Assembly (NCBI GenBank): GCA_902776685.1 | Contig: CACYRB010000011.1 | Location: 1 to 41,147, forward strand | Direction of reading: 5' to 3' | DNA from: an uncultured Prevotellaceae bacterium | GTDB taxonomy: Bacteria; Bacteroidota; Bacteroidia; Bacteroidales; Bacteroidaceae | Length of the DNA: 41,147 nt | Shown: positions 4,136 to 32,151 of the stretch, in pieces | How positions within the stretch are numbered: position 1 is the first letter of the stretch | Layout of the letters: each line of letters opens with the position of its first letter | Translations under genes and position numbers: made by a program | The notes under the pieces: generated by a model | What the model was told of the DNA's origin: nothing | The model's input: the letters and a program-made list of their open reading frames with translations, nothing else | Databases searched by the model: none

Positions 4136-4207
4136 ATATGGGCCGTATAACTGACCTATATGGCCCATATAACCCACCTATATGGGCCATATAACTTTTC
4201 AAAAGTT
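4136..4207 (+). repeat. Intergenic 22-bp-period array, copy 1 of a 72-bp element
   Basis: Three units starting ATATGG at 4136, 4158 and 4180, exactly 22 bp apart. Each core (ATATGGGCCGTAT, ATATGGCCCATAT, ATATGGGCCATAT) is a near-palindrome. The element ends in the palindrome AACTTTT-C-AAAAGTT (4193-4207). It aligns without gaps over 72 bp with 20829-20900. It sits in the 423-nt gene-free stretch 4009-4431, which otherwise holds the terminator and hairpin before it and, at its end, the HU promoter; I see no RNA gene there. Confidence 0.85.
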
Positions 4208-4378
4208 TGTTTTCTAACTGGAAGAAATGGTTTTCAGGGTTCTTTTTTACCAACGATAATCACACGATAAAAACATTAAAAATGTACGACGTAAGTCTAA
4301 ATCCATGAAAATTAGTCGTTTCTGCAAAATATTTTACAAAAAAAACAAAATAAATTTTCATATCACAAGAAAAACTTG

Positions 4379-4386
4379 TAATTTTG
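4379..4386 (+). promoter_or_regulatory. Probable -7 box of the HU-family gene
   Basis: TAATTTTG about 45 nt before the ATG. The -33 position (TTTT near 4355) is weak. Confidence 0.5.
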
Positions 4387-4431
4387 CACTCCAAAATAAA
4401 TAATTATTAATACAAAATAGTTTCATTAACG

Positions 4432-4716
4432 ATGACAAAAGCAGATATTATCAACGAAATCGCTGAGACTACTGGCATCGACAAGAAAGATGTCAGCACC
4501 GTTGTAGAGTGTTTCATGAAGTCAGTGAAGGACAGCCTTCTCAACAAGCGCGAGAACGTCTATTTGCGCGGATTCGGCAGCTTCAACGTCAAGCACAGAG
4601 CAGCCAAGACTGCCCGTAATATTCTCAAGAACACCACTATGGTGATTGAGGCTCACGACATTCCCAGCTTCAAGCCTGCCAAGAGCTTTAGCGAGCAAAT
4701 GAAAAACGGGAAATAA
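4432..4716 (+). CDS. HU/IHF-family nucleoid DNA-binding protein
   Basis: 94 residues, the normal length for the family. The fold is recognisable from MTKADIINEIAETTGIDKKD at the N-terminus (helical dimerisation part), VYLRGFGSFNVKHRAAKTAR near residues 43-62 (the usual GFGxF hairpin leading into the DNA-binding arm), and IPSFKPAKSFSEQMK at the end (xxFKPxKxL/F). It binds and bends DNA as a dimer. The arm tip, where most HU proteins carry RNPxT followed by Pro, reads ARNILKN here, a divergence often seen among the multiple HU paralogues of Bacteroidota. A -7 box lies upstream and the small basic gene follows 88 nt downstream, possibly on the same transcript. Confidence 0.92.
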   Translation: MTKADIINEIAETTGIDKKDVSTVVECFMKSVKDSLLNKRENVYLRGFGSFNVKHRAAKTARNILKNTTMVIEAHDIPSFKPAKSFSEQMKNGK

Positions 4717-4804
4717 GAACAGCCCTGTTGGCGTCAGCGTCAACCATTGCTTCCTGCATAAATCATTACAAAATACAATAATAACAATTTAAAACAAAAG
4801 AATC

Positions 4805-4894
4805 ATGCCAAACGGTAAAAAGAAAAAAGGCCACAAGATGGCAACGCATAAGCGTAAAAAGAGACTGAGAAAGAATAGGCATAAGAGCAAGTAA
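4805..4894 (+). CDS. 29-residue, very basic protein; possible small ribosomal-subunit protein (bS22/mS38-like)
   Basis: ATG at 4805, stop TAA at 4892-4894, giving 29 residues that start MPNGKKKKGHKMATHK and end RKNRHKSK. More than half the residues are Lys, Arg or His. It is too short for ordinary gene callers. I recognise the pattern as a strongly conserved Bacteroidota mini-protein that sits near the RNase G gene. The HKM-x-THKRKKRLRKNRHK core resembles the short basic tail of mitochondrial mS38 and mycobacterial bS22 (RM-x-KKKHRKLLRRTR), so a structural role in the ribosome, bound to rRNA, is a reasonable inference but not shown. Its neighbours, an HU protein and RNase G, fit a nucleic-acid context. 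The leader is AT-rich without a Shine-Dalgarno sequence. Confidence 0.75.
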   Translation: MPNGKKKKGHKMATHKRKKRLRKNRHKSK

Positions 4895-4934
4895 ATACAC
4901 CCCACTTGCACACATATACAGTCTATTCTGAATG

Positions 4935-5003
4935 GGGGCGTGTCAAAACATCCGCACGAAGGAAATGTATTGACACGTCCCGCTTTCTTATAAAAAAGAA
5001 AGC
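4935..5003 (+). terminator. Double hairpin after the small basic gene
   Basis: First a 17-bp stem (4935-4951 with 4965-4981, one A-A mismatch and one G-U pair), then a second stem GCTTTCTT (4982-4989) with AAGAAAGC (4996-5003). There is no long U tract, so termination is probable rather than certain. Confidence 0.5.
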
Positions 5004-5021
5004 CTGAACAGAAACCCGAAG

Positions 5022-5109
5022 CCCCCTCCCAACCTCCCCCCGAAGGGGAGGGGCGCATCCGCACAGACATTTGAGTCCCTTTCCCCTTCGGGGGGAGGTT
5101 GGGAGGGGG
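5022..5109. repeat. Perfect 27-bp inverted repeat upstream of rng
   Basis: Arms 5022-5048 and 5083-5109 are exact reverse complements, C-rich on the left and G-rich on the right, with a 34-nt spacer. Each arm contains CCCCTTC or its complement, a word seen dispersed between genes in many Bacteroidota genomes. It ends 30 nt before the RNase G start, so a transcript would carry a very stable hairpin there. Confidence 0.85.
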
Positions 5110-5139
5110 TCTTAACTTTTATTATTATCAAGTAAAGAA

Positions 5140-6714
5140 ATGACAAGCGAAGTAGTAATTGACGTCCAACAGAAAGAAATTTCAATTGCACTGCTCGAAG
5201 ACAAGAAACTCGTTGAGTATCAGACCGAGCCGCGCTCTGCCTCTTTCTCTGTTGGCAACATCTACATAGCAAAGGTGAAGAAGCTCATGCCTGGGCTCAA
5301 CGCCAGCTTTGTCGATGTCGGATTCGAACGCGATGCCTTTCTTCACTATCTTGACTTAGGAAGTCAATTCAACTCTTTCGAGAAATACCTCAAGCAGGTA
5401 CAAAGCGACAGGAAGAAACTCTACCCCTTTGCCAAAGCCTCACGGTTGCCCGACCTTCCGCGCGACGGGAGTGTACAGACAGCACTCGCCAAAGACAAGG
5501 AAGTTCTTGTGCAAATCGTGAAAGAGCCCATCTCCACCAAAGGCCCGCGTCTGACGGGCGAAATCAGCTTTGCCGGACGCAACTTGGTGCTCATTCCCTT
5601 TGGCGACAAGGTGTCGGTTTCCTCCAAAATCAAAAGCGGCGAAGAGCGTTCCCGACTGAAACAGCTCATCCAAAGCATCAAGCCCAAGAACTGCGGTATC
5701 ATCGTTCGGACAGTAGCCGAAGGAAAACGCGTGGCCGAGCTCGATGCTGAAATCAAGATTCTTACCAAGCGATGGGAAGATGCACTGGTCAAAGTACAGA
5801 AGACCCAGCAACGCCCGCAACTCATCTTTGAAGAAACAGGAAGAGCCGTCGCCCTGTTGCGCGACCTCTTCAACCCAACCTACGAAAGCATCTACGTCAA
5901 CGACGACGACGTGTATCAGGAAGTCAAAGACTATGTTGCCCTCATCGCACCCGAAAAAGTAGAAATTGTCAAGCGTTATACCGGAAAAGTACCCATCTTC
6001 GACAATTTCAACATCACGAAGCAAATCAAGTCGGGCTTCGGCAAAACCGTAAACTACAAGCGCGGCGCCTATCTCATCATCGAGCACACCGAGGCCATGC
6101 ACGTTGTCGACGTGAACAGCGGCACACGCGTCAAGAGCGACAACGGCCAAGAGGCTAACGCCCTTGAGGTAAACCTGGGTGCAGCCGACGAACTCGCACG
6201 CCAGCTACGTCTGCGCGACATGGGCGGCATCATCATTGTCGACTTCATCGACATGAAGCTCGCCGAAGACCGGCAGATGCTCTACGAGCGCATGTGTGAG
6301 AACATGAAGCAAGACCGCGCCCGCCACAACATCCTACCCCTTTCCAAGTTCGGGCTCATGCAAATCACACGTCAGCGCGTGCGCCCGGCCATGGACGTAA
6401 AAGTAGAAGAGACCTGTCCCACCTGCTTCGGTAAAGGAAAAATCAAGTCGAGCATTATCTTTACCGACCAGCTCGAAAGTAAAATCGACAACCTTGTCAA
6501 CAAGATTGGCATCAAGAAATTTGCACTGCACGTACATCCCTACGTCGCTGCCTACATCAACCAAGGCTTTCCAAGCCTGAAACGACGTTGGCAGATGAGA
6601 TACGGATTCGGCGTGCGCATCATCCCCTCGCAAAAACTCGCATTCCTGCAATACGAGTTCTATGATAAAGACCATAACTTCATCGATATGCAAGAGGAGA
6701 TAGAAAACAAATAG
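5140..6714 (+). CDS. rng: Ribonuclease G (RNase E/G family)
   Basis: 524 residues, normal for RNase G without the RNase E tail. It is a 5'-end-sensing, Mg-dependent endoribonuclease that cuts single-stranded AU-rich RNA in rRNA maturation and mRNA decay. An S1-type RNA-binding region covers about residues 35-135 (FSVGNIYIAKVKKLMPGLNA; GFERDAFLHY). The DNase-like catalytic core has HVVDVNSG near 321-328 (D324) and IIIVDFIDM near 364-372 (D368), the pair that holds Mg. The zinc-link CPTCFGKG lies at 426-433 and supports dimerisation, and the C-terminal subdomain follows. The start fits MTSEVVIDVQ, the usual N-terminus in this phylum. The gene follows a strong inverted repeat and is followed by tcdA 100 nt downstream. 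Confidence 0.95.
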   Translation: MTSEVVIDVQQKEISIALLEDKKLVEYQTEPRSASFSVGNIYIAKVKKLMPGLNASFVDVGFERDAFLHYLDLGSQFNSFEKYLKQVQSDRKKLYPFAKASRLPDLPRDGSVQTALAKDKEVLVQIVKEPISTKGPRLTGEISFAGRNLVLIPFGDKVSVSSKIKSGEERSRLKQLIQSIKPKNCGIIVRTVAEGKRVAELDAEIKILTKRWEDALVKVQKTQQRPQLIFEETGRAVALLRDLFNPTYESIYVNDDDVYQEVKDYVALIAPEKVEIVKRYTGKVPIFDNFNITKQIKSGFGKTVNYKRGAYLIIEHTEAMHVVDVNSGTRVKSDNGQEANALEVNLGAADELARQLRLRDMGGIIIVDFIDMKLAEDRQMLYERMCENMKQDRARHNILPLSKFGLMQITRQRVRPAMDVKVEETCPTCFGKGKIKSSIIFTDQLESKIDNLVNKIGIKKFALHVHPYVAAYINQGFPSLKRRWQMRYGFGVRIIPSQKLAFLQYEFYDKDHNFIDMQEEIENK

Positions 6715-6715
6715 A

Positions 6716-6802
6716 GTTAAGAAGTGATAAGTGAAGAGTGAAAAGTCTCCATCAGTATGTAGGGACTTATTACTTTTCACTTATCTCTTTTCACTTCTTA
6801 AC
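6716..6802. repeat. Imperfect 31-nt inverted repeat between rng and tcdA, containing a dispersed intergenic word
   Basis: Left arm 6716-6746 and right arm 6772-6802 agree at about 27 of 31 positions when one is reverse-complemented (both begin GTTAAGAAGTGA and end AGTGAAAAGT). The left arm and loop contain a 28-nt word (6738-6765) that recurs at 14077-14104 with 26 of 28 identities. The longer open frame of tcdA would run through this repeat, which argues for the later start. Confidence 0.75.
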
Positions 6803-6814
6803 TTTTCACTTCTT

Positions 6815-7555
6815 ATGGACGAGACCCCGTTTTCACGAACCGAACTACTCTTCGGCACCGAAGCCGTTGAAAAGCTACGACAGTCCAAGGTTGCCCTCTT
6901 CGGCATCGGCGGCGTGGGCGGCTATGTCGCCGAAGTGCTTGCCCGCAGCGGAGTCGGCGAGCTGCACCTCATCGACAACGACCGCGTCGCACCTTCCAAC
7001 CTCAACCGTCAAATCTTTGCCCTCCATTCCACCATCGGACAATACAAGGTCGACGTGGCCGAAACTCGTATCCACGACATCAACCCCGCGTGTACCGTCA
7101 GGAAATACAAAATGTTCTATCTCCCTGAAAACGCCGACGAGATAGACCTCTCCACATTCGACTACGTGGTCGACTGCATCGACACCGTGAAAGCAAAACT
7201 CGAACTTGCACGACGCTGCCACCGCCTCGGCCTGCCCATCATTGCAAGCATGGGCGCAGCCCGCAAAACCGACCCCACAGCCTTTTGCGTCACCGACCTT
7301 GCAAAGACACAAGGCGACCCGCTGGCTAAAGTCATACGAAAAACCCTACGAAAAGAAGGCATCAACCACATGAAAGTGGTCTATAGCCAGGAAAACGATA
7401 GCGGGAACGATAACGGGAACGATAACGTTCAACCTTTCAACCATTCAACTATTCAACCTTCAACGCGTCCTCCACTACCCTCTTGCGCGTTTGTTCCTGC
7501 TGCCGCTGGCATCATCATCGGAGGCGAAGTGGTGAAAGATTTAATCAAATTGTAA
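6815..7555 (+). CDS. tcdA: tRNA threonylcarbamoyladenosine dehydratase (E1-like)
   Basis: 246 residues starting MDETPFSRTELLFGTEAVEK. TcdA uses ATP to cyclise t6A37 of tRNA to ct6A in the cytoplasm. Visible features: nucleotide-binding loop ALFGIGGVGGYVAEVLARSG (about residues 27-46), the adenylation segment LIDNDRVAPSNLNRQ, VVDCIDTVKAK, and C-terminal FVPAAAGIIIGGEVVKDLI. The loop between VVYSQE and SCAFVPAAAG is odd: it is Asn/Asp-rich, then Gln/Pro/Ser-rich, and its DNA (about 7391-7466) is a GGGAACGATAAC repeat followed by TTCAACC-type repeats normally found between genes. The insertion keeps the frame. MtaB, which also modifies t6A37, is encoded at 33.2-34.6 kb. Confidence 0.9.
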   Translation: MDETPFSRTELLFGTEAVEKLRQSKVALFGIGGVGGYVAEVLARSGVGELHLIDNDRVAPSNLNRQIFALHSTIGQYKVDVAETRIHDINPACTVRKYKMFYLPENADEIDLSTFDYVVDCIDTVKAKLELARRCHRLGLPIIASMGAARKTDPTAFCVTDLAKTQGDPLAKVIRKTLRKEGINHMKVVYSQENDSGNDNGNDNVQPFNHSTIQPSTRPPLPSCAFVPAAAGIIIGGEVVKDLIKL

Positions 7556-7564
7556 AGAAAATAA

Positions 7565-7595
7565 TTGCACAAATCGGTAATTATTTGTATCTTTG
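7565..7595 (+). promoter_or_regulatory. Promoter for the GLUG surface-protein gene
   Basis: TTG at 7565-7567, 20 nt, TATCTTTG at 7588-7595; leader about 80 nt, beginning 9 nt after the tcdA stop. Confidence 0.7.
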
Positions 7596-7679
7596 CAGTC
7601 AAAACATTCCCGTGCGAGGGAAAAATATACAAATTGGTAGGGAAAATCTAATTCACCAAAGTATAACAATATCAATATT

Positions 7680-10600
7680 ATGACTATCAAGCAGACATTC
7701 TGGGGGATGCTCATCACAGTGATGACGCTCTCCACCATGCCTACTTCAGTGTGGGCCGACAGCAGTTTTGGCGGTGGCTCGGGAACCGAGCGCGACCCGT
7801 ACATCATTTCAACCACCGATCACATGCGACAATTGTCCAACGACGTGAACGGAGGTAACGCTTACAGTGGCAAACATTTCAAGTTAGCTAACGACCTCGA
7901 TTTCGAAGGCCAGGAGTACAACATCATCGGAGGAACTATTTATGATCAGGGGGCCGTCCGCTCCTTCTGCGGCACCTTCGACGGAAACGGAAAGACCATC
8001 TCAAACGTCACAAACCTGAAAAACTTTAGTGGAAACGGTAATTATGCTGGCCTGTTTGCCAGTGTTAATGCGGGTGGTACGGTTAAGAACCTGACTCTCG
8101 GCGGAAACAGCAAAATCGCTGGAAAATCAATGGTCGGAGGTATAATAGGCCTTCTGCACTGGAGTGGCTCTGTTGTTAACTGCCACACCGAGGAAAGCGT
8201 TACGATTATTCCTAACGCTGGAGCTCTTTCTATGTTCGGCGGAATTGTTGGAGTTAATGTAGAGGGCTCTATCAGCAACTGTACGAACAGGGCCACCGTG
8301 ACCAAAGGCGACACAGGGGCCTCCGGTATAGGAGGCATCGTCGGAAATAATAACAAAGGAACAATAAACGGCTGTTGGAACTACGGACAGATTCTCGGCA
8401 CCCATTATATCGGTGCTATCGTAGGAGAGTTTATCAAAGGAACCGTGACCAACTGCTATATCAGCGGCGGTTGTACCATCAACGGCATCGGAGCGCCAGA
8501 ATCGTCGGTTGGGGTAGACTCCGATGACACGAAGCACGTCAACTCCATCCGCTTTGCCACCCCCGCCTTAACCGGTGGCACCTTCATTACCCAGCCCATT
8601 GTCACGCTCGACGGTACCGACTACTACGAGTCTGACAAACCCGTAGAGTTTTCCGAGCTCCATACCTTCGGCGGCGTGGCTACCGGCAAGATGTGGACCT
8701 TCGATGCCATAGCACGTGGACACGACAACATTCGCCTACGACAAAAGGAAGATGGGTCGTGGTTCTTCACCATGCCCCGATGGGATGTGGCGATTGCTGC
8801 GGAAATCGCAACCGACATCACCTACAAACCCAACAACATCAACATCGACATTCAGGAGTCGGCCCGCTACGACGGCGAGCCAAAAGTGCCCAAAATCACG
8901 CTGTGGGATGCCAAGGCCGGCAAATATCTGAAAGAGGGTACCGACTTCATGACCGACCGTAATCCTGAAGGCTATACCAACGTGGGCGAACACCCCATCA
9001 CCTTATGGGGAATCGGCAACTACGGCGGCGAATATACCGGAACATTCACCATAACGAATGCCTGGGATGGCGAAGGCACACAGGCCAGCCCGTTCCTCAT
9101 CGGCTCTACCGACGACATGGACATGCTGGCCAAACTCGTCAACGACAAGCAATTCAAGACTACGAACGTGTACTTCAAACAAACAGCCGACCTCGACTAC
9201 GCAGGCAAAACCTACACGGCGATAGGAACCAGCGAAATCGGTGGTAATGGTTTTGACGGTCATTTCGACGGTAGCTACCACAGCATCAATAACGTCACCT
9301 GTACGAATGATAAGAACGTCGGATTGTTTGGGCTTGTAAACCCTAATGCCTACATTCAAAGCATCACAATCGGCGGACGGTCATCGTTTACCGGCGGCGA
9401 GTATTCCGGTGCCATAGCAGCTCAGAATCATGGCAACATCTCTATGTGCAACATACCCGAAGGACATGATGTGACCGTCAGTGGTAATTACTTGGTTGGT
9501 GGCATTGCAGGCTATAACGATGGAGAAATCAATGCAGAATCGTATGGAACGGTCAAACATTACAGTGATGGCAGGTTTAAGGGAGTCGCAGGCGGCATTG
9601 TCGGCTGGAACGAAGGTACTGTAAATGGCAGTTTCCATGGCAGCATTGAAGGCGAAGGCTTGGTCGGCGGTATAGCCGCCCGGAACGTTGGGCAGATTTT
9701 TGGCTCGATCAACACCGGAAAGATTATGGCAAAAGAGGCTAACAGCATTGTAGGCGGTATCATCGGGGAAAACGTCCAAAACGGCTCGATAGACCACTGT
9801 ATCAGCAACGCCCTTATGGAAACAGTCAACGGCGTGGCCAATGCCGGAGCCATAGTAGGCAAAAGCAGAAATGAAAACATCACCAACAACTACTACATCG
9901 GCGCATGCCGCTACGGCGGAATCAACGGCACCGACGTGAAAGGAAAGGCCATGCGTGGCTGGCCCATCAGCGTCGACGAGCACATCGGCATGCACCCAGA
10001 CTACCAAAGCGCTTTCGTGGGCACCTATTTCGAAGATGAGAAAGGGCACTTCTACTATGTGGGCAAAGACGAGACTCTCGTGATGACGCTTGCTGCTGCC
10101 GAGTTTGAATATGAAGGATTCACTGCCAACGGCAACCCCATCCCCTTGACAGGACAGAACGAATGGGGCGACAACCTGTATTCGCTGACCATGCCCGCCG
10201 AGCATGTCTACATCAAAGGTGTAGGCCCGACGTTCGTGCTGCTCGACAACGACCGCTACGACTACAGCAACATCTACCGCATTGAGAGCAGCAAGGGGAA
10301 GACCTACGACGTGAGGATTAAAGACCGCACCCTTGAAAAGAACAACAAGTGGAGCACCATCTGCCTGCCGTTCAGTCTTTCGGCCGAAGCCATTGCCACA
10401 TCGCCCCTGGCCGGCGCTACCATCATGGAACTCGACCCCTCGCCCGAAGACAACAATAAGAAGACCGGCATTGAGGGTAATACACTCTACTTGACCTTCA
10501 AGACGGCCACGCAGATTGAGGAAGGAAAGCCCTATGTCATCAAGTGGTCTGACGACGGAGACGCCATTACCGACGTTCGATTCAAAGAGATGCTCATCGG

Positions 10601-11015
10601 CAGCGAGACACCGCAAACCATTACTGCAGCATCGGAAGGAATGGAAGAAGTCAAGTTCATCGGTAATTACTCGACTAAGGTTCTTTATCCGTATCACTAC
10701 AACCAGTTCTATATGAACGAACAAGGTCAGATAGTCACAAACGGAGACGAGGAGAAGCCCGTCAATGCCTTCCGAGGATATTTTGAAATTGAGGAATCGA
10801 TAACCATCGACGAGGTAAAGGTTGACTTCAGCGACGCCACAGCCATCGACATCATGCGTAATCCCTCATCCCTCACCACTCAATCCTCATCCGAAGGTGC
10901 TGTCTATGACCTGCAAGGCCGTAAAATCGCCGACGACGTCTCTTCATTCATGAAGCATCCTTCATATCGAAAAGGCATCTATGTCGTGGGAGGAAAGAAG
11001 ATGGTATTGAAATAA
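7680..11015 (+). CDS. Large GLUG-repeat secreted surface protein
   Basis: 1111 residues with signal peptide MKQTFWGMLITVMTLSTMPTSVWA (written from the second Met region; start ATG at 7680). It has two parallel repeat regions, each opened by a lead-in: GTERDPYIISTTDHMRQLSN (about residue 37) and GTQASPFLIGSTDDMDMLAK (about 464). GLUG-type repeats follow, of the form GGIVGxNxGTIxxCxN (for example GIGGIVGNNNKGTINGCWNY). Such regions form beta-helical surface adhesins. An MBG-like domain, YKPNNINIDIQESARYDGEP, lies near 380. The C-terminus (VYDLQGRKI ... GIYVVGGKKMVLK) resembles the tail domain common on Prevotella surface proteins and on type IX cargo. A role in adhesion or glycan contact is inferred. 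A promoter lies upstream and a 22-bp array directly downstream. Confidence 0.85.
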   Translation: MTIKQTFWGMLITVMTLSTMPTSVWADSSFGGGSGTERDPYIISTTDHMRQLSNDVNGGNAYSGKHFKLANDLDFEGQEYNIIGGTIYDQGAVRSFCGTFDGNGKTISNVTNLKNFSGNGNYAGLFASVNAGGTVKNLTLGGNSKIAGKSMVGGIIGLLHWSGSVVNCHTEESVTIIPNAGALSMFGGIVGVNVEGSISNCTNRATVTKGDTGASGIGGIVGNNNKGTINGCWNYGQILGTHYIGAIVGEFIKGTVTNCYISGGCTINGIGAPESSVGVDSDDTKHVNSIRFATPALTGGTFITQPIVTLDGTDYYESDKPVEFSELHTFGGVATGKMWTFDAIARGHDNIRLRQKEDGSWFFTMPRWDVAIAAEIATDITYKPNNINIDIQESARYDGEPKVPKITLWDAKAGKYLKEGTDFMTDRNPEGYTNVGEHPITLWGIGNYGGEYTGTFTITNAWDGEGTQASPFLIGSTDDMDMLAKLVNDKQFKTTNVYFKQTADLDYAGKTYTAIGTSEIGGNGFDGHFDGSYHSINNVTCTNDKNVGLFGLVNPNAYIQSITIGGRSSFTGGEYSGAIAAQNHGNISMCNIPEGHDVTVSGNYLVGGIAGYNDGEINAESYGTVKHYSDGRFKGVAGGIVGWNEGTVNGSFHGSIEGEGLVGGIAARNVGQIFGSINTGKIMAKEANSIVGGIIGENVQNGSIDHCISNALMETVNGVANAGAIVGKSRNENITNNYYIGACRYGGINGTDVKGKAMRGWPISVDEHIGMHPDYQSAFVGTYFEDEKGHFYYVGKDETLVMTLAAAEFEYEGFTANGNPIPLTGQNEWGDNLYSLTMPAEHVYIKGVGPTFVLLDNDRYDYSNIYRIESSKGKTYDVRIKDRTLEKNNKWSTICLPFSLSAEAIATSPLAGATIMELDPSPEDNNKKTGIEGNTLYLTFKTATQIEEGKPYVIKWSDDGDAITDVRFKEMLIGSETPQTITAASEGMEEVKFIGNYSTKVLYPYHYNQFYMNEQGQIVTNGDEEKPVNAFRGYFEIEESITIDEVKVDFSDATAIDIMRNPSSLTTQSSSEGAVYDLQGRKIADDVSSFMKHPSYRKGIYVVGGKKMVLK

Positions 11016-11028
11016 ATTGCATCGCTGC

Positions 11029-11150
11029 GATTCCCAAGCAGTGAGAATGTGATTCCCAAAACGTGAGAAACGGTTTTTCAGATTTTGAGAAACCATTTCT
11101 CACGTTTTGAGAAATCGTTTCTCAAAATCGCATACCGACTTTGAGAAACG
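11029..11150. repeat. Intergenic 22-bp-period array, sequence type 2
   Basis: TGAGAA(A) occurs at 11042, 11064, 11086 and 11108, exactly 22 bp apart, and again at 11142 after 34 bp. GATTCCC occurs at 11029 and 11051, also 22 bp apart. Later units carry both TTTTGAGAAA and its complement TTTCTCA, so adjacent units can pair. It fills most of the gap between convergent genes (plus strand ending 11015, minus strand ending 11199) and could act as a bidirectional terminator or a binding array. It does not resemble the arrays at 4136 and 20829 in sequence. Confidence 0.8.
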
Positions 11151-11198
11151 TTTTTACATAAAGCAGAACTTAAGATAAAAATGGCAACACAATGGGCT

Positions 11199-11555: not shown

Positions 11556-11579
11556 CATAAAAAAATTAGTATGCGTTGG

Positions 11580-11587: not shown

Positions 11588-11680
11588 ATAAATTATTCAC
11601 AATTCAGAATGAATAATGCATATTTTTTTCGTGACTTTAGATAAGTTACTCCGTCTCGGCAAAAAAATAAACGAGTTTAT

Positions 11681-11711
11681 TTTGTTCTACTCTCGACTTT
11701 TCGTAACTTTG
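11681..11711 (+). promoter_or_regulatory. Promoter for the LacI-antiporter operon
   Basis: TTTG at 11681-11684, 19 nt, TAACTTTG at 11704-11711, with a leader of about 17 nt before the ATG at 11733. The longer open frame from 11616 would start upstream of this promoter and is rejected. Confidence 0.75.
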
Positions 11712-11732
11712 CATCGGAAAGAATACAAAAAT

Positions 11733-17828: not shown

Positions 17829-18798
17829 TTGGGGATTTATCGGCTGCGGAGAAGTCACCGAGAAAAAATCGGGTCCAGCCTTTAACGAAGTTGAAGGCTC
17901 CCACATCGAAGCCGTGATGAGCCGAAGCAAGGAAAAGGCACAATCCTATGCCACACGCCATCACATCAAGAAATGGTACGCCGACCCGCAGCAAATCATC
18001 GACGACCCCGACGTCAACGCCATTTACATCGCCACGCCCCCTTCAAGCCACGCCACGTTTGCCATCATGGCCATGAAAGCAGGCAAGCCCGTCTACGTGG
18101 AAAAGCCCTTGGCCTCAACCTACGACGACTGTGTCCGCATCAATCGCGTGAGCGAAGAAACAAGTGTCCCCTGTTTCGTGGCCTACTACCGTCGCTACCT
18201 CCCCTACTTTCAGCGCGTCAAGGCTATTATCGAAGCACAGGCCATCGGGAAAGTCACCAACGTGCAACTGCGTTTCTCCGTACCACCACGCGAGCTCGAC
18301 TACAACAGTGCCGGCCAGCTCCCCTGGAGACTTCAGCCCGACATTGCCGGCGGAGGCTACTTCTACGACCTCGCCCCCCATCAGCTCGACCTCCTGCAGC
18401 ACCTCTTCGGCATCATCACCCATGCACATGGCTATACCACCAACCGCGCAGGTCTTTACCAAGCCGAAGACACCATCAGTGCCGCCTTTCAGTTTGCCGA
18501 TGGTCTGCCAGGCAGCGCCTCATGGTGCTTTGTCGGACATGCCACCGCCAAAGAAGACAGCATCCACGTCATTGGCGAGCAAGGCATACTAACCTTCTCA
18601 GTATTCAACTACACCCCCATCCGCCTGACCAACGGCAACGGAACTGAGCACATCACCGTAGACAACCCGCCCTACGTCCAGCTGCCCATCATCAAAAACG
18701 TCATTGAAGACCTGCAAGGCACCGCCACCTGCCAATGCACCAGCGTAAGCGCCACTCCCGTCAACTGGGTCATGGACCGCATCCTGGGAAAACTGTAG
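17815..18798 (+). CDS. Gfo/Idh/MocA-family NAD(P)-dependent oxidoreductase
   Basis: 327 residues, cytoplasmic. The Rossmann N-terminus reads SWGFIGCGEVTEKKSGPAFN (about residues 5-24), followed by AIYIATPPSSHATFAIMAMK and the family hallmark VYVEKPLA with E96-K97-P98. The C-terminal substrate domain has GGGYFYDLAPHQLDLLQHLF, whose DLAPHQxD segment supplies the usual catalytic His. Members act on sugars, inositols or related polyols; the substrate cannot be read from the sequence. It starts inside the last codons of nudC (14-nt overlap), so the pair is translationally coupled. Whether that reflects a shared pathway is unknown. Confidence 0.88.
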   Translation: MKQISWGFIGCGEVTEKKSGPAFNEVEGSHIEAVMSRSKEKAQSYATRHHIKKWYADPQQIIDDPDVNAIYIATPPSSHATFAIMAMKAGKPVYVEKPLASTYDDCVRINRVSEETSVPCFVAYYRRYLPYFQRVKAIIEAQAIGKVTNVQLRFSVPPRELDYNSAGQLPWRLQPDIAGGGYFYDLAPHQLDLLQHLFGIITHAHGYTTNRAGLYQAEDTISAAFQFADGLPGSASWCFVGHATAKEDSIHVIGEQGILTFSVFNYTPIRLTNGNGTEHITVDNPPYVQLPIIKNVIEDLQGTATCQCTSVSATPVNWVMDRILGKL

Positions 18799-18851
18799 CG
18801 CTTCGCTAATGAATAATGAATAATGAATAGTTACCGCGATGAGCCAGTCCA

Positions 18852-18885
18852 ATTATGCATTATGCATTATGCATTATGCATTATA
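18852..18885 (+). repeat. Heptanucleotide tandem repeat (ATTATGC x4 plus ATTATA)
   Basis: Four perfect copies of ATTATGC start at 18852, 18859, 18866 and 18873. Each contains an ATG (18855, 18862, 18869, 18876), and because 7 is not a multiple of 3 these fall in successive frames. Only 18862 is in frame with the DUF4421 gene. Copy-number change would move the frame. Confidence 0.85.
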
Positions 18886-20828: not shown

Positions 20829-20900
20829 ATATGGGGCGTTTTACTGACTTATATGGGCCATATTGCATTGCAATATGGCCCATATAACTTTCCAAAAGTT
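20829..20900 (+). repeat. Intergenic 22-bp-period array, copy 2 of the 72-bp element
   Basis: ATATGG units at 20829, 20851 and 20873, exactly 22 bp apart. Units two and three form a perfect 17-bp inverted repeat around one base (20851-20867 with 20869-20885). The element ends AACTTTCCAAAAGTT (20886-20900), as the 4136-4207 copy does. It lies between convergent genes (DUF1460 and dapA). Confidence 0.85.
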
Positions 20901-25595: not shown

Positions 25596-25604
25596 TCCTT
25601 ACAG

Positions 25605-26159
25605 CTATTTCTGACGTTTGTACTGGAAAATACCTTTGTCACACTCCAGCCAAAGCGAGTCGGGACCTAAGGCGAGCACGTCAAACGTGTCGGTGTTCAG
25701 GACCAGCCGGCCATTGTATATTTTCCACGTCGTGTAGGGTTTACTTTCCGCCGAGCCCTTTGATGCAACGACACCGCCTTCTTTTATCTCGAAGTTCTTG
25801 GCGATGTCTGTCCATCGACCCTGAAGCGAGTTCAAATTTACCGCATGCTGAACACTCAATTCGCCGTCTACACTATGACCAATGATTGCCATACGGTCTC
25901 CCTCAAAGCAGCCGCCCTTAACCATCGAGTCTTTGTCTTCTACGTAGTATTCTACCGTGTCACCGTTGTCGGTCAGCAATACGATTTTCGACATACCACC
26001 TTCAAGAAACTTCCCATAGACCGTCGAGTCTGCGCCGTCGTCCATTTCCAGGCCGCCACCAATGGTAGGCTGTTCGTTCTTTGGTTTCTTTTCGTCACAG
26101 GCAGTCAGAACACAGAGAGACAATGCCAGCAACACTAAAAAATTAAAGCATTTTTTCAT
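25605..26159 (-). CDS. Lipocalin-like lipoprotein
   Basis: 184 residues from MKKCFNFLVLLALSLCVLTA with the lipidation Cys in LTAC-DEKK. The mature part is beta-rich: ADSTVYGKFLEGGMSKIVLL, GDTVEYYVEDKDSMVKGGCF, GDRMAIIGH, then the C-terminal module LQGRWTDIAKNFEIKEGGVV, which resembles the lipocalin-like domain of Bacteroidota lipoproteins. The ligand is unknown. The ORF extends upstream to 26201, into mazG; the start at 26159, 4 nt after the mazG stop, gives a proper signal peptide and fits an operon mazG, lipoprotein, rnz. Confidence 0.85.
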   Translation of the reverse strand: MKKCFNFLVLLALSLCVLTACDEKKPKNEQPTIGGGLEMDDGADSTVYGKFLEGGMSKIVLLTDNGDTVEYYVEDKDSMVKGGCFEGDRMAIIGHSVDGELSVQHAVNLNSLQGRWTDIAKNFEIKEGGVVASKGSAESKPYTTWKIYNGRLVLNTDTFDVLALGPDSLWLECDKGIFQYKRQK

Positions 26160-26163
26160 ATTC

Positions 26164-27045
26164 TTATTTATTCTTTTTTTTCTCGGGAACATTCCGTTCA
26201 CTTGTTTTTGCTTCTTCCCAAAGCCTGTCCTTCTCTTCCAACGATGTCTCCGTCAGCAACTTACCTTGTTTAAGGGTGTGTTCCTCAACATAATTGAAGC
26301 GGCGGATAAACTTTTGGTTCGTATGCTCAAGGGCATTATCAGGATTCAATTTGTAGAGCCGTGCCGCATTGATGACGGAAAAGAGAAAATCGCCCAGTTC
26401 TTCGGTCGAACGTTCCTTATCCTCACGCTTCAACTCCGCTTCCAGTTCGTCGAGTTCCTCGCGCACCTTCTTCCACACATCCTCTTTCTGCTCCCAGTCG
26501 AAGCCCACGTGGCGTGCTTTATCCTGTATGCGATAGGCCTTGATGAGCGAAGGCAAGGCATTGGGCACACCAGAAAGCACCGTCTTGTTGCCACCTTTCT
26601 CCTTTTGTTTGATTTGCTCCCAGTTGTCAAGCACCTGCTCCACATCTTTCACCTTGGTCGTCTGAACTCCATCTTCGGAATCTTCTCCATATGGCAATGG
26701 TTTCGGATCGGGTGCGCCCACCTGTGAGGGATGATAGACGTGCGGATGACGGAATATCAATTTGTCGACAGAGCGATTGCAGACATCTGCAATATCAAAA
26801 TCGCCTTGTTCCTCACCGATGCGAGCATAGAAACAAACATGCAGGAGCACGTCGCCGAGTTCCTTGCAGATTTCGTCTTTATCATCTTTCATCAGAGCAT
26901 CACACAGCTCAAATGTTTCTTCTATTGTGTTTGGCCGCAGACTCTCGTTGGTCTGCTTGCGGTCCCAGGGACATTTTTCTCTTAATGTGTCGAGCACGTC
27001 AAGGTATCGCCCGAAGGCCGCCAGTTTCTCTTCGCGTGTATGCAT
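26164..27045 (-). CDS. mazG: Nucleoside triphosphate pyrophosphohydrolase MazG
   Basis: 293 residues from MHTREEKLAAFGRYLDVLDT. It hydrolyses (d)NTPs to NMP and pyrophosphate, a housekeeping or stress role. There are two tandem MazG domains. The first has CPWDRKQTNESLRPNTIEET, the EExxE helix and CKELGDVLLHVCFYARI with metal-binding Glu/Asp. The second has FDWEQKEDVWKKVREELDEL and STEELGDFLFSVINAAR. The C-terminus is Lys-rich. A perfect promoter at 27067-27098 fixes the start at 27045; the frame's earlier Met at 27069 overlaps the -7 box. It diverges from valS. Confidence 0.94.
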   Translation of the reverse strand: MHTREEKLAAFGRYLDVLDTLREKCPWDRKQTNESLRPNTIEETFELCDALMKDDKDEICKELGDVLLHVCFYARIGEEQGDFDIADVCNRSVDKLIFRHPHVYHPSQVGAPDPKPLPYGEDSEDGVQTTKVKDVEQVLDNWEQIKQKEKGGNKTVLSGVPNALPSLIKAYRIQDKARHVGFDWEQKEDVWKKVREELDELEAELKREDKERSTEELGDFLFSVINAARLYKLNPDNALEHTNQKFIRRFNYVEEHTLKQGKLLTETSLEEKDRLWEEAKTSERNVPEKKKNK

Positions 27046-27066
27046 AACAGTTTTCGATTCTGCGTA

Positions 27067-27098
27067 CAAAGGTAGCTATTTTTCAACAATCGCCCAAA
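27067..27098 (-). promoter_or_regulatory. Promoter of the mazG operon
   Basis: Minus strand TTTG (complement of 27095-27098), 20 nt, TACCTTTG (complement of 27067-27074), with a leader of about 16 nt. Confidence 0.78.
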
Positions 27099-27150
27099 AT
27101 AAACAATTAAAAAAAACAACAATCTGCACCATGAATTATGAATAATTTTG

Positions 27151-27158
27151 TACCTTTG
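27151..27158 (+). promoter_or_regulatory. -7 box for valS
   Basis: TACCTTTG, 35 nt before the ATG at 27193. An ATTATGAATAAT word of the dispersed intergenic type sits just upstream; the -33 element is weak. Confidence 0.55.
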
Positions 27159-27192
27159 CACCCAAATTGCACTTTACACATTATTATAAGGT

Positions 27193-29925
27193 ATGGAATT
27201 AGCAACAAAATATGACCCTCGCGAAGTGGAGGGTAAATGGTATCAGTATTGGCTTGACAACAAGCTGTTCAGTTCTAAACCCGACGGACGCGAGCCCTAC
27301 ACTATCGTGATTCCCCCGCCCAACGTAACCGGCGTGCTCCACATGGGTCACATGCTTAACAACACCATTCAAGACATTCTGGTCCGCCGTGCACGCATGG
27401 AGGGAAAGAATGCTTGCTGGGTGCCCGGAACCGACCATGCCTCGATTGCCACAGAAGCAAAGGTTGTGAAAAAACTGGCTGCCGAGGGCATCAAGAAACG
27501 CGACCTTACACGCGATGAGTTTTTGAAACATGCCTGGGATTGGACCCACGAACACGGTGGAATCATCTTAAAGCAGTTGCGACGTCTTGGTGCATCGTGC
27601 GACTGGGACCGTACAGCCTTTACCATGGACGAGAAACGCTCCGAAAGCGTTATCAAGGTTTTTGTCGACCTCTACCGCAAGGGCTACATCTATCGTGGCC
27701 TGCGTATGGTGAACTGGGATCCAAAAGCACTGACGGCATTGTCTACCGAGGAGGTTATTTACAAAGAAGAACACTCAAAGCTATATCATCTGAAATATTA
27801 TCTTAAAGATGCCGAAGGGCTTGGCGACATCAACGCACTAAAAGACGCCGGCAATGTCATCCATAACGATGAACGCGGTTACTATGCCGTTGTAGCTACC
27901 ACACGCCCCGAAACCATCATGGGTGACACGGCTATGTGCATCAACCCGAAAGACCCAAAGAATCAATGGCTCAAAGGCCGACATGTCATCGTGCCGCTCG
28001 TAGGACGTGAGATTCCCGTCATCGAAGACCGCTATGTCGACATCGAGTTTGGTACAGGCTGTCTGAAGGTCACACCTGCCCACGACACAAACGACTATAT
28101 GCTGGGTAAGACCCACAACCTGAAGACCATCGACATCTTTAATGCCGACGGCACCATCAGCGAACAGTCGCCTTTGTATGTGGGTATGGACCGTTTCGAT
28201 TGCCGCAAACAAATCGCAAAAGATCTTGAAGAGGCAGGACTGATGGAACGCGTAGAAGAGTATGTGAACAAGGTCGGCTATTCCGAACGTAACCCCGACA
28301 CCGCCATCGAGCCGCGTCTTTCGCTGCAATGGTTTCTGAAGATGCAGCACTTTGCCGACATCGCTCTGCCGCCGGTAATGAATGACGAGCTGAAGTTTTA
28401 TCCTGCAAAATACAAGAACACCTACAAGAACTGGCTTGAGAACATTCAAGACTGGTGCATCTCTCGTCAACTATGGTGGGGTCACCGCATCCCAGCATAT
28501 TACTATACTTGCGAGACTGGAGACGAGGCTTTCGTTGTTGCCGAGACGCCCGAGGAAGCTCTCAACCTGGCACGTCAGGAAAGTGGCAATCTGAATCTGC
28601 AACCGAGCGACCTTCGTCAAGATGAAGATGCACTTGACACCTGGTTCTCATCATGGTTGTGGCCTATTAGCCTGTTCGACGGCATCAATCATCCGGACAA
28701 CGAGGAAATAACCTACTACTACCCCACCAGTGACCTTGTTACAGGTCCCGACATCATTTTCTTCTGGGTGGCTCGTATGATTATGGCTGGCTATGAGTAT
28801 GTGGGCAAAATGCCATTCCGAAATGTTTATTTCACGGGTATCGTGCGCGACAAGCTTGGCCGGAAGATGTCGAAATCGTTGGGTAACAGTCCCGACCCCA
28901 TTGAGCTCATCGACAAATACGGAGCCGACGGCGTTCGCATGGGTATGATGCTCTCTGCACCTGCCGGTAACGACATCCTGTTCGACGAAGCACTTTGCGA
29001 ACAAGGACGAAACTTCAACAACAAGATATGGAATGCTTTCCGTCTGGTCAAAGGCTGGCAAGTGGCTGATAATTGTGCCGACAGCGAATCGGCTACTACC
29101 AACAAGACCGCCATTGCCTGGATGAATGCCAAGCTTCGTGCAGCCAATGCCGAGCTCAACGACCATTTCTCAAAATACCGCATTTCTGATGCGCTGATGA
29201 CGGTCTACAAACTTTTCTGGGACGAATTTTCTGCATGGTATTTGGAAATGGTGAAACCGGCATACGTCAACGGAGAAGCACAGCCCATTGACCGTGAGAC
29301 CTATGAGGCTACGCTCGGTTTCTTCGACGCATTGTTGAAGATGCTCCATCCCTTCATGCCATTCATTACCGAGGAACTTTGGCAACATCTGTACGACCGC
29401 GAACCGGGAGAAAGCATCATGCGCGAATGTCTGAAACTCGAAGAACCTACAGCCGAAGAGTTGCAACTCATCAGCGACGTGGAGCAAATGAAACAAGTTG
29501 TATCAGGGGTGCGCACGGTGCGCAACCAGAAGAACATTGCCCCCAAGGAAAAACTCCAACTGTTGGCTATCGGCTCCAATCGTTATGAAGCCTTTAACGC
29601 CGTCATCACCAAGATGGCCAATCTTGAGTCCATCAGCATAGTGGATGAGAAGCCGACTGATGCCTCTGCTTTCATGGTTGGCACTGATGAATATGCCGTG
29701 CCACTTGGCTCGCTTATCGATGTTGAAGCTGAGATAGAAAAGGCTGAAGCACAGCTGAAGCATCTCGAAGGTTTCCTTGCCAGTGTGATGAAAAAGCTCT
29801 CAAACGAACGGTTTGTACAAAATGCTCCCGAGGCTGTTGTTGCCATGGAGCGCAAGAAGCAAGCCGACAGCGAGGAAAAGATTGCGGCCCTTCGCACAAC
29901 AATCGAAGAACTCAGAAAGAAATGA
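27193..29925 (+). CDS. valS: Valine--tRNA ligase
   Basis: 910 residues, full length. It is a class I synthetase that charges tRNA-Val, with an editing domain. The start [20 protein letters not shown] is standard. The HIGH-type motif is [20 protein letters not shown] near residues 41-60. The editing CP1 domain contains [20 protein letters not shown]; the KMSKS motif lies in [20 protein letters not shown]. The anticodon-binding domain and a C-terminal coiled coil (about 845-910, [20 protein letters not shown]) are both present, as in other ValRS. The stop TGA overlaps the ATG of the next gene, and a strong terminator hairpin follows within 20 nt. Confidence 0.97.
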
Positions 29926-31136
29926 AAAGCCGACTCATAAAGCCGAGAGCACTCAGAAGGTATGCCTTCTGGGTGTTCTCGGTTGCTTTTTTCTTTTCTC
30001 TGACCTCATGCCACGACGACCATCCTACGTCTGTTCCCGAATCACAAACAGCGGCAAAGACCATTCTCATGTTTCTGCCCTTCAGTGGTGACGACAACAA
30101 TAACTACAATCTTTACAATAATTTCCAACAAAACATCAGCGATATTGAGCAGGTAATCGTCAACAACGGCGGCATCGGAAACCGTCGGTTGCTGGTCTGC
30201 ATCTCGCTCTCTGCAACACGTGCGGCCCTTGTTGACCTTGTCTACGACAAAGGCAAGTGCCGCCGCGACACGCTACGACGCTATTCACACCCTGCGCTGA
30301 CTACAGCCGAAGGGCTTGCCACCATCTTTAACGACATGAAGGCCGTGGCACCAGCCGACCAATATGCGCTGATCGTTGGTTGCCATGGCGAAGGATGGTT
30401 ACCCGCCCGACGAAATGCCATGCCTCCTACGACACGTCACTTTGGCGGGCTCAGCAGCCAACACCAGATAGAGACTTCAACGCTTGCACGCGCAGTCAAC
30501 ATGGCCGGCCTGAAATTCCAATTCATGCTTTTCGATGTCTGTTACTTCTCTACCATTGAAGTGGCCTACGACCTGCGCCATGCAACAGACCATCTCATTG
30601 CCTCAACCAGTGAAATCATGGCTTACGGAATGCCCTATCAGCAAATGCTTCCAAGTCTGCTGAAGGATTCTCCCGACTACGATGCGGTTTGCCAACAGTT
30701 CTTGCATTTCTATGAAAACTATTACAGTTCCGGAAAACCCATGCCCTATGGAACGCTTGCCGTCACCGACCTACGCCAGATGGACAATATGGTTGAGACG
30801 ATGCGCGAGATAAACCGTCAATGCTCCTTTGACGACGCGTTCCTCTATCAGCTGCAAGATCTTGATGCAGGACACTGGGAGCCTACCATTTATTTCGATT
30901 TCGGCGACTATGCGCAAAGACTTTGCCACAATCGCGACGACCTGCACGAGCTGTTCATTGCGTCTTTGTCTAAACTTGTCGTCAGCAAGGTTGCAACCGA
31001 AAACATTTATTCTGCCGCAGGGAAAAAGGTTCTTAAGATTAATAGCTTTTCAGGACTTTCCATCAGCGACCCGTCTGTCAACGAACAAGCCACGGCATCA
31101 AAGCAACAAACGCCTTGGTGGAAAGCCACGCACTAA
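29922..31136 (+). CDS. Clostripain-like (C11 family) cysteine peptidase lipoprotein
   Basis: 404 residues from ATG 29922, which overlaps the valS stop (ATGA). The N-terminus is a lipoprotein signal with lipidation Cys 30 (FFFSLTSC). The C11 dyad is H155 in [11 protein letters not shown] and C207 in [11 protein letters not shown], the caspase-like arrangement that gives cleavage after Arg or Lys. It is probably anchored outside the cytoplasm. The codons for residues 8-25 form both arms of the valS terminator hairpin, so expression needs read-through. No good later start is seen: an in-frame GTG at 29973 would lose the basic n-region. The partner gene downstream is convergent (GldB-like). Confidence 0.85.
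29943..29999 (+). terminator. Strong intrinsic terminator or attenuator inside the start of the C11 peptidase gene
   Basis: Arms 29943-29960 and 29965-29982 pair over 18 bp with two G-U wobbles around the loop TATG. A T-rich run (TTGCTTTTTTCTTTTCT) follows at once. It lies 17 nt after the valS stop and within codons 8-21 of the overlapping peptidase gene. Confidence 0.85.
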
Positions 31137-31160
31137 ACTATCTGATTTACCGCACTCACA

Positions 31161-31940
31161 TCAACTCGACAACAGAGCCTTTATGCTGGTCTTTGGGTGT
31201 TGTTTCATGTAACGATCTACCTTCGCCGTATAAGGTGTTTTGAAGAACTGGCGACCCAGAGCCTTGTTGGTCACCCACATCACGCGTCCCATGTGCATGT
31301 CTCGTTCTTCCTGAGTAGCCTCCTCATAGTTGTTCAACGGATACAAACTTAAAAGATAGAACGAAATAGCATCAGGTACGACAAAGCGGCGTGCCATCGA
31401 ACGACGTTGCTCGGCCGAATAGAAACGCAAATATGGCTGATAATTTTCGCCCAAATATTTGTCAAGCGAAATTCCCACCGTCTGCTCGCCCACGACAATG
31501 CTTTGATTCAATGCGCTGATTTGCGCATAGAAAGTCGGAATCTTTATTCCTGGAAGCAACTTCTCTAATTGCGTAACAGCATTATCAAGATCGCGATTGA
31601 TATCCTTCATGTTTGCAAACTCGGTTTCTGCATCCATGATGATGGTCTGAAGGAGGGTGTCTTGAAAGAAACGGAGAAACTTACTATTGATTTCGGGATC
31701 GTTCACCTGTCCGAGTTTCATCATGTCTTCTATCAACATGCGCGTCTCCATCGGATAATCGGTGTTCATCTGCTGCAAAGCAGAGTAGTCGCCTGTTGTC
31801 AGATAACGACTCTCCAGGCGGTCATAGCGTTGCACTTCTATGCGCGACGCACGCTCCTCATCCTCGCTTGGCTTCAGCTTAAAGTTACAAGCCACACAAA
31901 GCAAGGCCATTGCAAGCAGTATGTAATATGCCCTCTTCAT
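31161..31940 (-). CDS. GldB-family lipoprotein
   Basis: 259 residues from MKRAYYILLAMALLCVAC, lipidation Cys 18. The body fits the gliding-motility lipoprotein GldB family: IEVQRYDRLESRYLTTGDYS near residue 33, the central IPTFYAQISALNQSIVVGEQ, VGISLDKYLGENYQPYLRFY, and a C-terminal helix-rich part (EERDMHMGRVMWVTNKALGR). GldB is essential for gliding in Flavobacterium, but homologues persist in non-gliding Bacteroidota, where the role is unsettled. The perfect promoter at 31948-31978 places the transcript start within a few nt of the ATG. The gene ends 24 nt from the convergent peptidase gene. Confidence 0.82.
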   Translation of the reverse strand: MKRAYYILLAMALLCVACNFKLKPSEDEERASRIEVQRYDRLESRYLTTGDYSALQQMNTDYPMETRMLIEDMMKLGQVNDPEINSKFLRFFQDTLLQTIIMDAETEFANMKDINRDLDNAVTQLEKLLPGIKIPTFYAQISALNQSIVVGEQTVGISLDKYLGENYQPYLRFYSAEQRRSMARRFVVPDAISFYLLSLYPLNNYEEATQEERDMHMGRVMWVTNKALGRQFFKTPYTAKVDRYMKQHPKTSIKALLSS

Positions 31941-31947
31941 TTCGGGA

Positions 31948-31978
31948 CAAAAGTACTAAAAAATATTGTAAAACACAA
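31948..31978 (-). promoter_or_regulatory. Promoter giving a near-leaderless gldB-like mRNA
   Basis: Minus strand TTG (complement of 31976-31978), 20 nt, TACTTTTG (complement of 31948-31955). The box ends 7 nt before the ATG at 31940, so the 5' leader would be about 0-3 nt. Confidence 0.7.
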
Positions 31979-32072
31979 GAAAATTGCTAAAAAAGTTAAA
32001 TTTATGGCTCAAAAACCGCAATTTAACTTTAATTTATTGAAAATTATTAGTTTATCGTTTGGGGCAGTACTT

Positions 32073-32151
32073 CATAGGGAGGACTGCAGTTTTCCATAGA
32101 GAGGACGAGAGTTTTCCATAGGGAGGACGAGAGTTTTCCATAGGGAGGACG
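32073..32151. repeat. Intergenic 22-bp-period array, sequence type 3
   Basis: CATAGGGAGGAC (second copy CATAGAGAGGAC) occurs at 32073, 32095, 32117 and 32139, exactly 22 bp apart. The units are contiguous; the last two whole units (GTTTTCCATAGGGAGGACGA) are identical. It lies just downstream of the GT2 gene, whose stop is at 32167 on the minus strand, and about 95 nt upstream of the gldB-like promoter. No internal palindrome was noticed, unlike the other arrays. Confidence 0.88.

Follow-up and report, generated by a model that had tools for sequence, protein, structure and literature searches.

Intergenic arrays of unrelated sequence share a 22-bp pitch and an inverted symmetry in an uncultured Prevotellaceae genome

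The DNA analysed here (the window) is a stretch of 41,147 nucleotides, contig 11 in the 2.71-Mb assembly of an uncultured Prevotellaceae bacterium (132 contigs, 81% complete). It contains four intergenic tandem arrays, starting at positions 4136, 11042, 20829 and 32073, whose units follow one another at 22 bp. Several unrelated 22-bp families coexist in this one genome, and their pitch is more constrained than their sequence: substitutions are tolerated, length changes hardly at all, a conclusion that is well supported by the counts below. As a tentative explanation, which we rate somewhat short of an even chance, we propose that the arrays represent several families of short dispersed intergenic elements, presumably mobile, that carry phased sites read by a dimeric protein. 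The first 20 listed relatives of the ValS protein encoded in the window all belong to Prevotella or Prevotellaceae, with 81–83% identity, placing the genome near Prevotella.

The period was measured in a same-genome sample composed of the window and the first 20 kb from each of 40 other contigs, in total 841 kb or 31% of the genome, of which 83.6 kb is intergenic according to open reading frames (ORFs) called by a simple script. Intergenic self-match segments number 30 at lag 22, 19 at lag 44 and 9 at lag 66. All other lags from 10 to 80 give at most three segments each, and none were obtained in three rounds of Markov-resampled sequence. An earlier sequence-only reading of the window had noticed the common period, and the excess of 30 lag-22 segments against none in randomised intergenic sequence, together with a spread of periods that is not broad, bears it out for this genome. 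The 30 tandem 22-bp arrays fall into five sequence clusters at a threshold of 15/22 and into seven at 16/22; the seven-cluster split is to be preferred, as the 99% and 99.9% levels of shuffled units are at scores of 14 and 16.

Family A and a second, mosaic family were studied most closely, families B and C in less depth. In family A, all 67 adjacent-unit steps measure 22 in the 29 elements retained under the rule of the spacing analysis, in a search that allowed any gap up to 48, while adjacent units mismatch at 272 of 1474 positions (18.5%). In the mosaic family, the inner steps equal 22.0 in 53 of 53 cases and the outer steps 22.5 (41) or 21.5 (8), an offset that arises because the outer unit, termed K, is one base longer. 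Exact copies of the motif AAAG-N5-CTTT that neighbour each other within 60 bp in the sample are 22 bp apart in 44 of 46 pairs, against no pair at all for the motif reversed. The suggestion that conserved spacing with free sequence means that geometry matters is well supported, even inside single elements.

Many units are palindrome-like and consist of inverted half-sites, and in some elements palindromes of different kinds are combined at one pitch; both features extend what had been seen before. The family A unit is AGTTATATGGSCCATATAACT, and the family D unit is GTAATATA..TATATTAC. A further set has AAAG/CTTT arms around a five-base centre, comprising unit E with the core ACSGT, unit G with the core CTWAG, and others. 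Distances from dyad to dyad peak at 22.0 (68 pairs) and 22.5 (16 pairs). Restricted to palindromes of unlike sequence, 9 pairs are observed at 22.0 and 15 at 22.5, compared with 0.4 and 0.6 in randomised sequence; further peaks, at 11, 33 and 55 bp, follow trivially from the periodicity of the palindromes. This analysis took the place of a circular-palindrome statistic, which is weak (6 of the genome's own 30 22-bp arrays at p ≤ 0.05), we think because the palindromes occupy just part of the unit. The two half-sites of family A vary independently, with 519 Watson-Crick pairs against 528 expected under independence (67 distinct units), which fits one dimer subunit per half and speaks against an obligate paired hairpin. 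Wobble on the sense strand is not clearly favoured in co-directional settings, where mismatched pairs comprise 21 GU and 17 AC.

The elements of family A and of the mosaic family follow a common architecture, in which an outer unit is followed by two to six inner units, mostly three, and a second outer unit, spanning roughly 110 bp; the overall size range is roughly 100–130 bp. The mosaic family combines two different inner palindromes at one pitch. Among 28 mosaic elements with at least three recognised units, read irrespective of orientation, 13 are K-E-E-G-K, 5 are K-E-G-G-K and 2 are K-G-E-G-K, the remaining 8 being single variants, mostly shorter; K units are confined to the ends in all 28. 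Family A was recovered as 30 elements of at least two units, including the two of the window. Its outer unit is of the type CCRAAAG-N5-CTTTTG, with a dyad that, from reading the sequences, also lies 22 bp from the last A unit, and the column information of the 30 elements is near zero by 27 bp past that unit. The outer units of five family D clusters are of the AAAG-N5-CTTT type as well, some of them imperfect. Flanks are unrelated between copies in family A and, by eye, in the mosaic family, which delimits a bounded, non-coding element with inverted ends; in many mosaic elements the flanks extend as an inverted repeat, likewise judged by eye. Spread by copying of 22-bp units, as the sequence-only reading had envisaged, captures only half of the picture: what is dispersed in the closely studied families is a bounded structure, about five units long and closed off by outer units of their own kind, and not a free-running 22-bp repeat. 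Runs of GTGAAAA or TCATCCC border many mosaic elements (such as those at loci L046, L053 and L062). They are akin to perfect or near-perfect 7-bp tandem repeats found in the window at 6765–6815, 18807–18884 and 35190–35217 (TAATGAA, ATTATGC, ACTTTTC, ATGAACT).

All four window arrays were confirmed by direct reading, none with an assigned strand. Tandem Repeats Finder (TRF) reports period 22 for three of them, with the top three scores among its 42 rows for the window. The family A array at 4136–4196 has three units, at 4136, 4158 and 4180, with the core TATATGGSCCATATA at a pitch of 22 (TRF score 94). A degenerate right outer unit, AACTTTTCAAAAGTTTGTTTT, is located at about 4193–4213, and the left outer unit is unrecognisable by eye. 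A second, diverged family A element at 20829–20891, with units at 20829, 20851 and 20873, was identified by eye and matches the A pattern exactly at 20873–20891; it lies between two convergent genes (amidase-like and DHDPS), and is absent from the TRF list, falling under the TRF and lag-22 thresholds used. These two arrays had been read as copies of one element and the other two as unrelated, and this stands: families C and B resemble neither A nor each other. The family C array at 11042–11124 consists of TGAGAAA-N3-TTTCTCA units with a 5-bp linker at 11042, 11064, 11086 and 11108. TRF covers 11064–11124 (score 73), the first unit being diverged and visible by eye only, and two more clusters of the family are present in the sample (L060:8850 and L080:12758). 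The family B array at 32073–32152 comprises about 3.6 units of CATAGGGAGGACGAGAGTTTTC (TRF score 132) and starts about 15 bp beyond the stop of a glycosyltransferase gene. Better-kept copies of family B read CAGTACTCCTTAGGGAGGACTG, an imperfect 22-bp palindrome, and the genome holds 10 further places at E ≤ 10, the weakest at E 0.01. Neither tRNAs nor RNA families above gathering score were detected in the window.

Two side observations concern these families. A perfect hairpin, GAGGTGAGAAAGTTTCTCACCTC, at window positions 4029–4051 after the DUF4332 gene has TGAGAAA/TTTCTCA arms as in the family C array at 11042. Elsewhere in the sample, two distinct 22-bp families, TGAGAACATGCTTCTCA (L064:9428-9506) and TAAACCTATCGTTTA (9557-9645), are neighbours 50 bp apart in one intergenic region.

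Other species were compared using one genome per species, designated here by G numbers. Family A is essentially species-specific: allowing one mismatch, its pattern occurs at 52 sites in its own genome and at 2 in 59 relatives, one of these among 35 of the same genus. The geometry, by contrast, recurs in related species. Of 60 genomes of the genus, our own among them, 30 contain a pattern of two AAAG-N5-CTTT units separated by any gap of 3–15 bases; 11 have at least 10 places and the others 0–7. The richest genomes are G255 with 249 places, our own with 159, G012 with 154, G269 with 145, G263 with 118, G010 and G022 with 73 each, G004 with 58, G260 with 27, G256 with 15 and G257 with 10. For the reversed pattern, no genome exceeds 6 places, and these 11 have 0–1. 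Among the plus-strand places listed, which cover some genomes only, 71 of 75 show a spacing of exactly 22 bp (33 in G010, 33 in G012 and 5 in G017), and the other four are each the sole match of their genome; the 14 listed plus-strand places counted in our own genome are all at 22. The cores are specific to the species, with ACSGT and CTWAG in our genome, GTTAT, GTCAT and GTTAC in G010, CTATG, GGCTG and CACTG in G012, GCCGT and GTGGC in G269, and ATGGT and GTATC in G260. In another Prevotellaceae genome, RUG11701 (G247), CGATTCA-N5-TGAATCG units with varying cores are spaced at 22. Lag analysis gives a 22-bp period for 30 of 57 arrays in the sample of our own genome, and for 13 of 26 arrays in the 54 best-ranked named ValS loci, mostly from Prevotella. 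Lag autocorrelation misses part of the mosaic arrays: no lag-22 segment appears in 100 kb of G004 or in 60 kb of G010, yet these genomes contain the 58 and 73 places given above. Outside the genus, the AAAG pattern is found in 31 of 147 genomes, mostly as single matches of varying spacing that are no more frequent than in the control; the exception, G123, has an AAAG run at 21 bp (G123:C4:280297-280498). No arrays were detected by lag analysis in 200 kb of E. coli K-12.

With respect to genes, not one of the 57 elements sampled has its centre inside an ORF of 150 aa or more, although about 87–89% of the sample is coding. At this ORF length 47 of the 57 can be placed, 17 between divergent neighbours (10–13 expected), 12 between convergent ones (8 expected) and 18 between co-directional ones (26–29 expected). 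With ORFs of at least 100 aa, 46 are placed, and the counts are 13 (10–13), 12 (8) and 21 (24–27), respectively. The elements are rarer than expected between co-directional genes and have no 3'-end specificity. The location 3' of at least one gene noted by the sequence-only reading is correct for all four window arrays but fails as a general rule. Family A alone tilts towards 3' ends, with 8 convergent, 11 co-directional and 2 divergent placements (21 placed, 4 more unplaced). These counts replace an earlier one made with a 70-aa ORF caller, which called short ORFs through 28 of 69 units; the ORFs concerned, 11 in total, all measured 73–133 aa.

Repeated protein contacts on one DNA face, an example offered by the sequence-only reading, would best fit the sequence data, given the strict pitch, the inverted half-sites and the independent variation of the A half-sites. 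We postulate a dimeric protein that recognises the elements as double-stranded DNA. Each unit presents two inverted half-sites, with a centre of about 5 bp between short arms, and successive centres are 22 bp apart. One dimer would occupy each unit, with its neighbours packed two turns away on the same side of the helix. Supercoiling to a density near −0.05 raises the 10.5 bp per turn of DNA to about 11, so that two turns correspond to 22 bp. The partner could be a transposase or accessory factor that spreads the elements, or a nucleoid or regulatory protein. Arms and cores would diverge together with it, giving every species a vocabulary of its own at an unchanged pitch. A bolder version, which we regard as unlikely, is a recognition system of part of the genus, in which a DNA-binding protein, perhaps as a filament with one subunit per turn in alternating orientation, recognises the arrays by their pitch and inverted symmetry, the word itself being a fast-changing, species-specific code; some hundreds of arrays would tag the genome, and protein and words would co-evolve as lock and key. 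Repeat families are normally defined by sequence, whereas here spacing and symmetry are conserved while one sequence gives way to another from species to species and even from slot to slot of an element, which suggests a DNA-reading partner for which helical phase outweighs the word. Conservation of this kind would account for the elements escaping sequence-based repeat finders, in a host group that is common in rumen and human microbiomes.

Several results weigh against a dimeric protein reading a fixed pitch. When one arm mismatch is allowed, AAAG neighbours are found not only at 22 (59 pairs) but also at 21 (2) and 23 (1), with 3 at 21 and 1 at 22 in the reversed control. The inner words E and G covary as whole words, with 164 complementary pairs against 142 expected (27 distinct units), a value matched by none of 2000 permutations, and a hairpin could also account for this. 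The sole locus read in G022 (L334, G022:C12) has AAAG arms at 21 bp over five units and four steps. By lag analysis, arrays of 22 bp make up 5 of 15 in the 26 lower-ranked ValS loci of mixed Bacteroidales, where 21 occurs in 4 and 23 in 3; in same-genus samples the figure is 2 of 20, with 3 at 23 bp, in the order sample 0 of 6, with 2 at 23 bp, and in phylum outgroups 1 of 4. Four of the 57 elements are centred in an ORF if ORFs of at least 100 aa are counted. No partner protein was found, the sampled third of the genome has no pair of elements enclosing a gene within 3 kb, and no movement or change in copy number was seen with one genome per species. Target-site duplications were not recognised in 25 mosaic elements, 4 of which have a 3–4-nt direct repeat near their ends that we take as chance. 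With 21 in the G022 locus read and 21–23 elsewhere, 22 itself is not obligatory, and the pitch may be a species trait that shifts by single bases. Genomes akin to Prevotella thus commonly show a spacing near two helical turns, in most cases 22, and outside this group the rule is less strict.

Among known systems, the BOX elements of Streptococcus pneumoniae (boxA-boxB(n)-boxC) are modular dispersed repeats that combine end modules with a variable count of inner modules, as in the elements described here; they differ in forming a single family with modules of about 45–60 bp and no 22-bp pitch. Plasmid centromeres and iterons keep their spacing for cooperative binding of dimeric proteins while the sequence varies between systems, and resemble the present elements in this respect. 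They occupy one or a few loci per replicon, in contrast to the dozens to hundreds of dispersed copies here. The nearest relatives in kind are the BIME/REP repeats and BrickBuilt, a miniature inverted-repeat transposable element (MITE) and minisatellite. Like the present elements, BIME/REP repeats are short, intergenic, palindromic, high in copy number, species-specific and mosaic in unit order. The elements of this genome are set apart by the fixed 22-bp pitch, by units of about 13–21 bp and by the GT[AG]G foot not being the rule, and no class-2 RAYT was found in the 81%-complete genome. A pitch-conserving, sequence-free family is not described in the passages of PMC6006769 and PMC3733652 consulted. 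BrickBuilt, from Porphyromonas gingivalis and P. gulae, has 23-nt units, a long leader and tail and IS5-like ends, and forms one family, as given in PMC4596501, which also cites 22-nt repeats in strain W83. BrickBuilt shares with the present elements the order Bacteroidales, an intergenic and dispersed location, a near-equal length of tandem units, flanks with inverted ends and a variable unit number. The pitch is 22 here against 23, and our search for terminal inverted repeats did not reveal IS5-like ends at the AAAG elements; palindromic units, mosaic units and a pitch common to unrelated families are not described in the parts of PMC4596501 consulted. An exact 22-bp period, although it holds in the present genome, is thus not universal, given 21 bp in the G022 locus, 21 and 23 alongside 22 at other Bacteroidales loci and 23 in BrickBuilt. 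The statement that no named element has this property survives for the pitch rule, since no prior description of a pitch-conserving, sequence-free repeat family was found in the portion of the open-licence PMC literature covered; its bearing is narrowed by near relatives such as BIME/REP and BrickBuilt.

The variable unit number of 2–6 per element, the palindrome-like units and the equal step in unrelated families could also be produced by neutral palindromic satellites. Single-stranded DNA would then be copied, by slippage or from hairpin primers, in steps of about 22 nt set by the mechanism itself, which would be the source of a functionless pitch; hairpin-templated correction could even yield the whole-word differences between E and G. 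To this origin we assign a minor share of the probability, as adjacent A units differ by 18.5% with no spacing off 22, which implies that the pitch outlasts the copying, as the outer units are distinct from the inner ones and found only at the ends, and as the A half-sites are not kept complementary. That the units act instead as RNA, in the form of tandem hairpins at gene ends that terminate transcription or stabilise mRNA, is the least probable of the explanations weighed. The position of all four window arrays 3' of a gene and the lean of family A towards 3' ends agree with it, but contexts overall lack such a bias, none of 26 AAAG clusters has a T-rich tail, there is neither a clear GU preference nor half-site covariation in A, the stems measure just 4–5 bp where cores are non-palindromic, and an RNA hairpin has no need of a fixed pitch.

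Explanations by known types of mobile DNA treat the pitch differently. As proposed for BrickBuilt, the elements could be MITEs of an ordinary insertion sequence that carry a 22-bp minisatellite by chance, the pitch being incidental. Their dispersed, bounded, non-coding and intergenic nature, the flanks of mosaic elements that, in our own reading, often continue as an inverted repeat, and the bacterial order common with BrickBuilt are in line with this, yet an incidental minisatellite would need the identical pitch in every family, the mosaic elements lack target-site duplications, and terminal inverted repeats of the BrickBuilt type (GAGACCTTTGCA-type, one mismatch) match only twice in 841 kb, both times more than 400 bp away from any AAAG element. 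We consider this origin distinctly unlikely. More doubtful still are REP/BIME-type palindromes moved by the tyrosine transposase TnpA_REP (RAYT). Palindrome-like, intergenic, species-specific and mosaic elements would be expected of them, and one family D array has a Y1_Tnp gene of this genome as a neighbour, at a distance of about 230 bp. Both Y1_Tnp genes found in the genome, however, show the signature YxxxQxxHH and are subclass-1.2-like, and for Y1_Tnp subclass 1.2 PMC6006769 states that REP-like structures are generally absent. According to the same paper, genes of the Bacteroidetes RAYT subclass 2.6 are flanked by 'atypical' structures, copies of which also occur at other places in the genome. 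None of the 30 best-scoring order-wide Y1_Tnp loci (1.8–3.4 kb each) contains a 22-bp array, two having an array of 21 or 26 bp; 13 of the 30 carry the Q-HH signature and none is assignable to class 2, so these loci say nothing on subclass 2.6, and with the genome 81% complete a RAYT gene may have been missed. Of 69 AAAG units, only 6 on one strand and 7 on the other have the GT[AG]G foot near the arms. On the opposite side of the Y1_Tnp gene from the family D array, we observed an array of units of about 27 bp, TATCGTTTCCCCGATGTGAAGCCCC, at L082:1120-1290 (G000:C22, about 18647-18817).

Regarding movement, the elements are presumably mobile, as the flanks of some thirty family A copies are unrelated and the family is missing from near relatives. 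None of the 80 ValS loci examined for orthologous sites shows amidase and DHDPS matches together; the sole GldB-GT2 pair in these loci has its members 1.4 kb apart. A scan of same-genus DHDPS loci used a detector that missed the window's own diverged array and skipped reverse-lying loci.

Other origins were considered and rejected. A phage origin was set aside with no exact match in viral_contigs for one A and one mosaic pattern, and a plasmid origin with no plasmid match for one mosaic element. CRISPR arrays, in which identical repeats alternate with unique spacers of 25–40 bp next to cas genes, do not agree with diverged units, linkers of about 1–9 bp and dozens of dispersed short arrays (cas genes were not searched). 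Intrinsic terminators, GC-rich stems with a T run behind them at gene 3' ends, were dismissed on the missing T-tails of the 26 AAAG clusters and the contexts described above. DNA-uptake-signal dialects are species-specific words as well, but the pitch and the array form do not fit them.

A further dispersed sequence was noted in the window. A promoter-like stretch of 90 bp at 11625–11713, upstream of a LacI-type regulator gene, ends in CGTAACTTTGCATC. A search of Rfam around this repeat, near position 11.6 kb, gave no match at E ≤ 1. The stretch recurs at 86–97% identity in four other places of the genome and in at least eight other same-genus genomes, and forms a dispersed, promoter-like and possibly mobile module.

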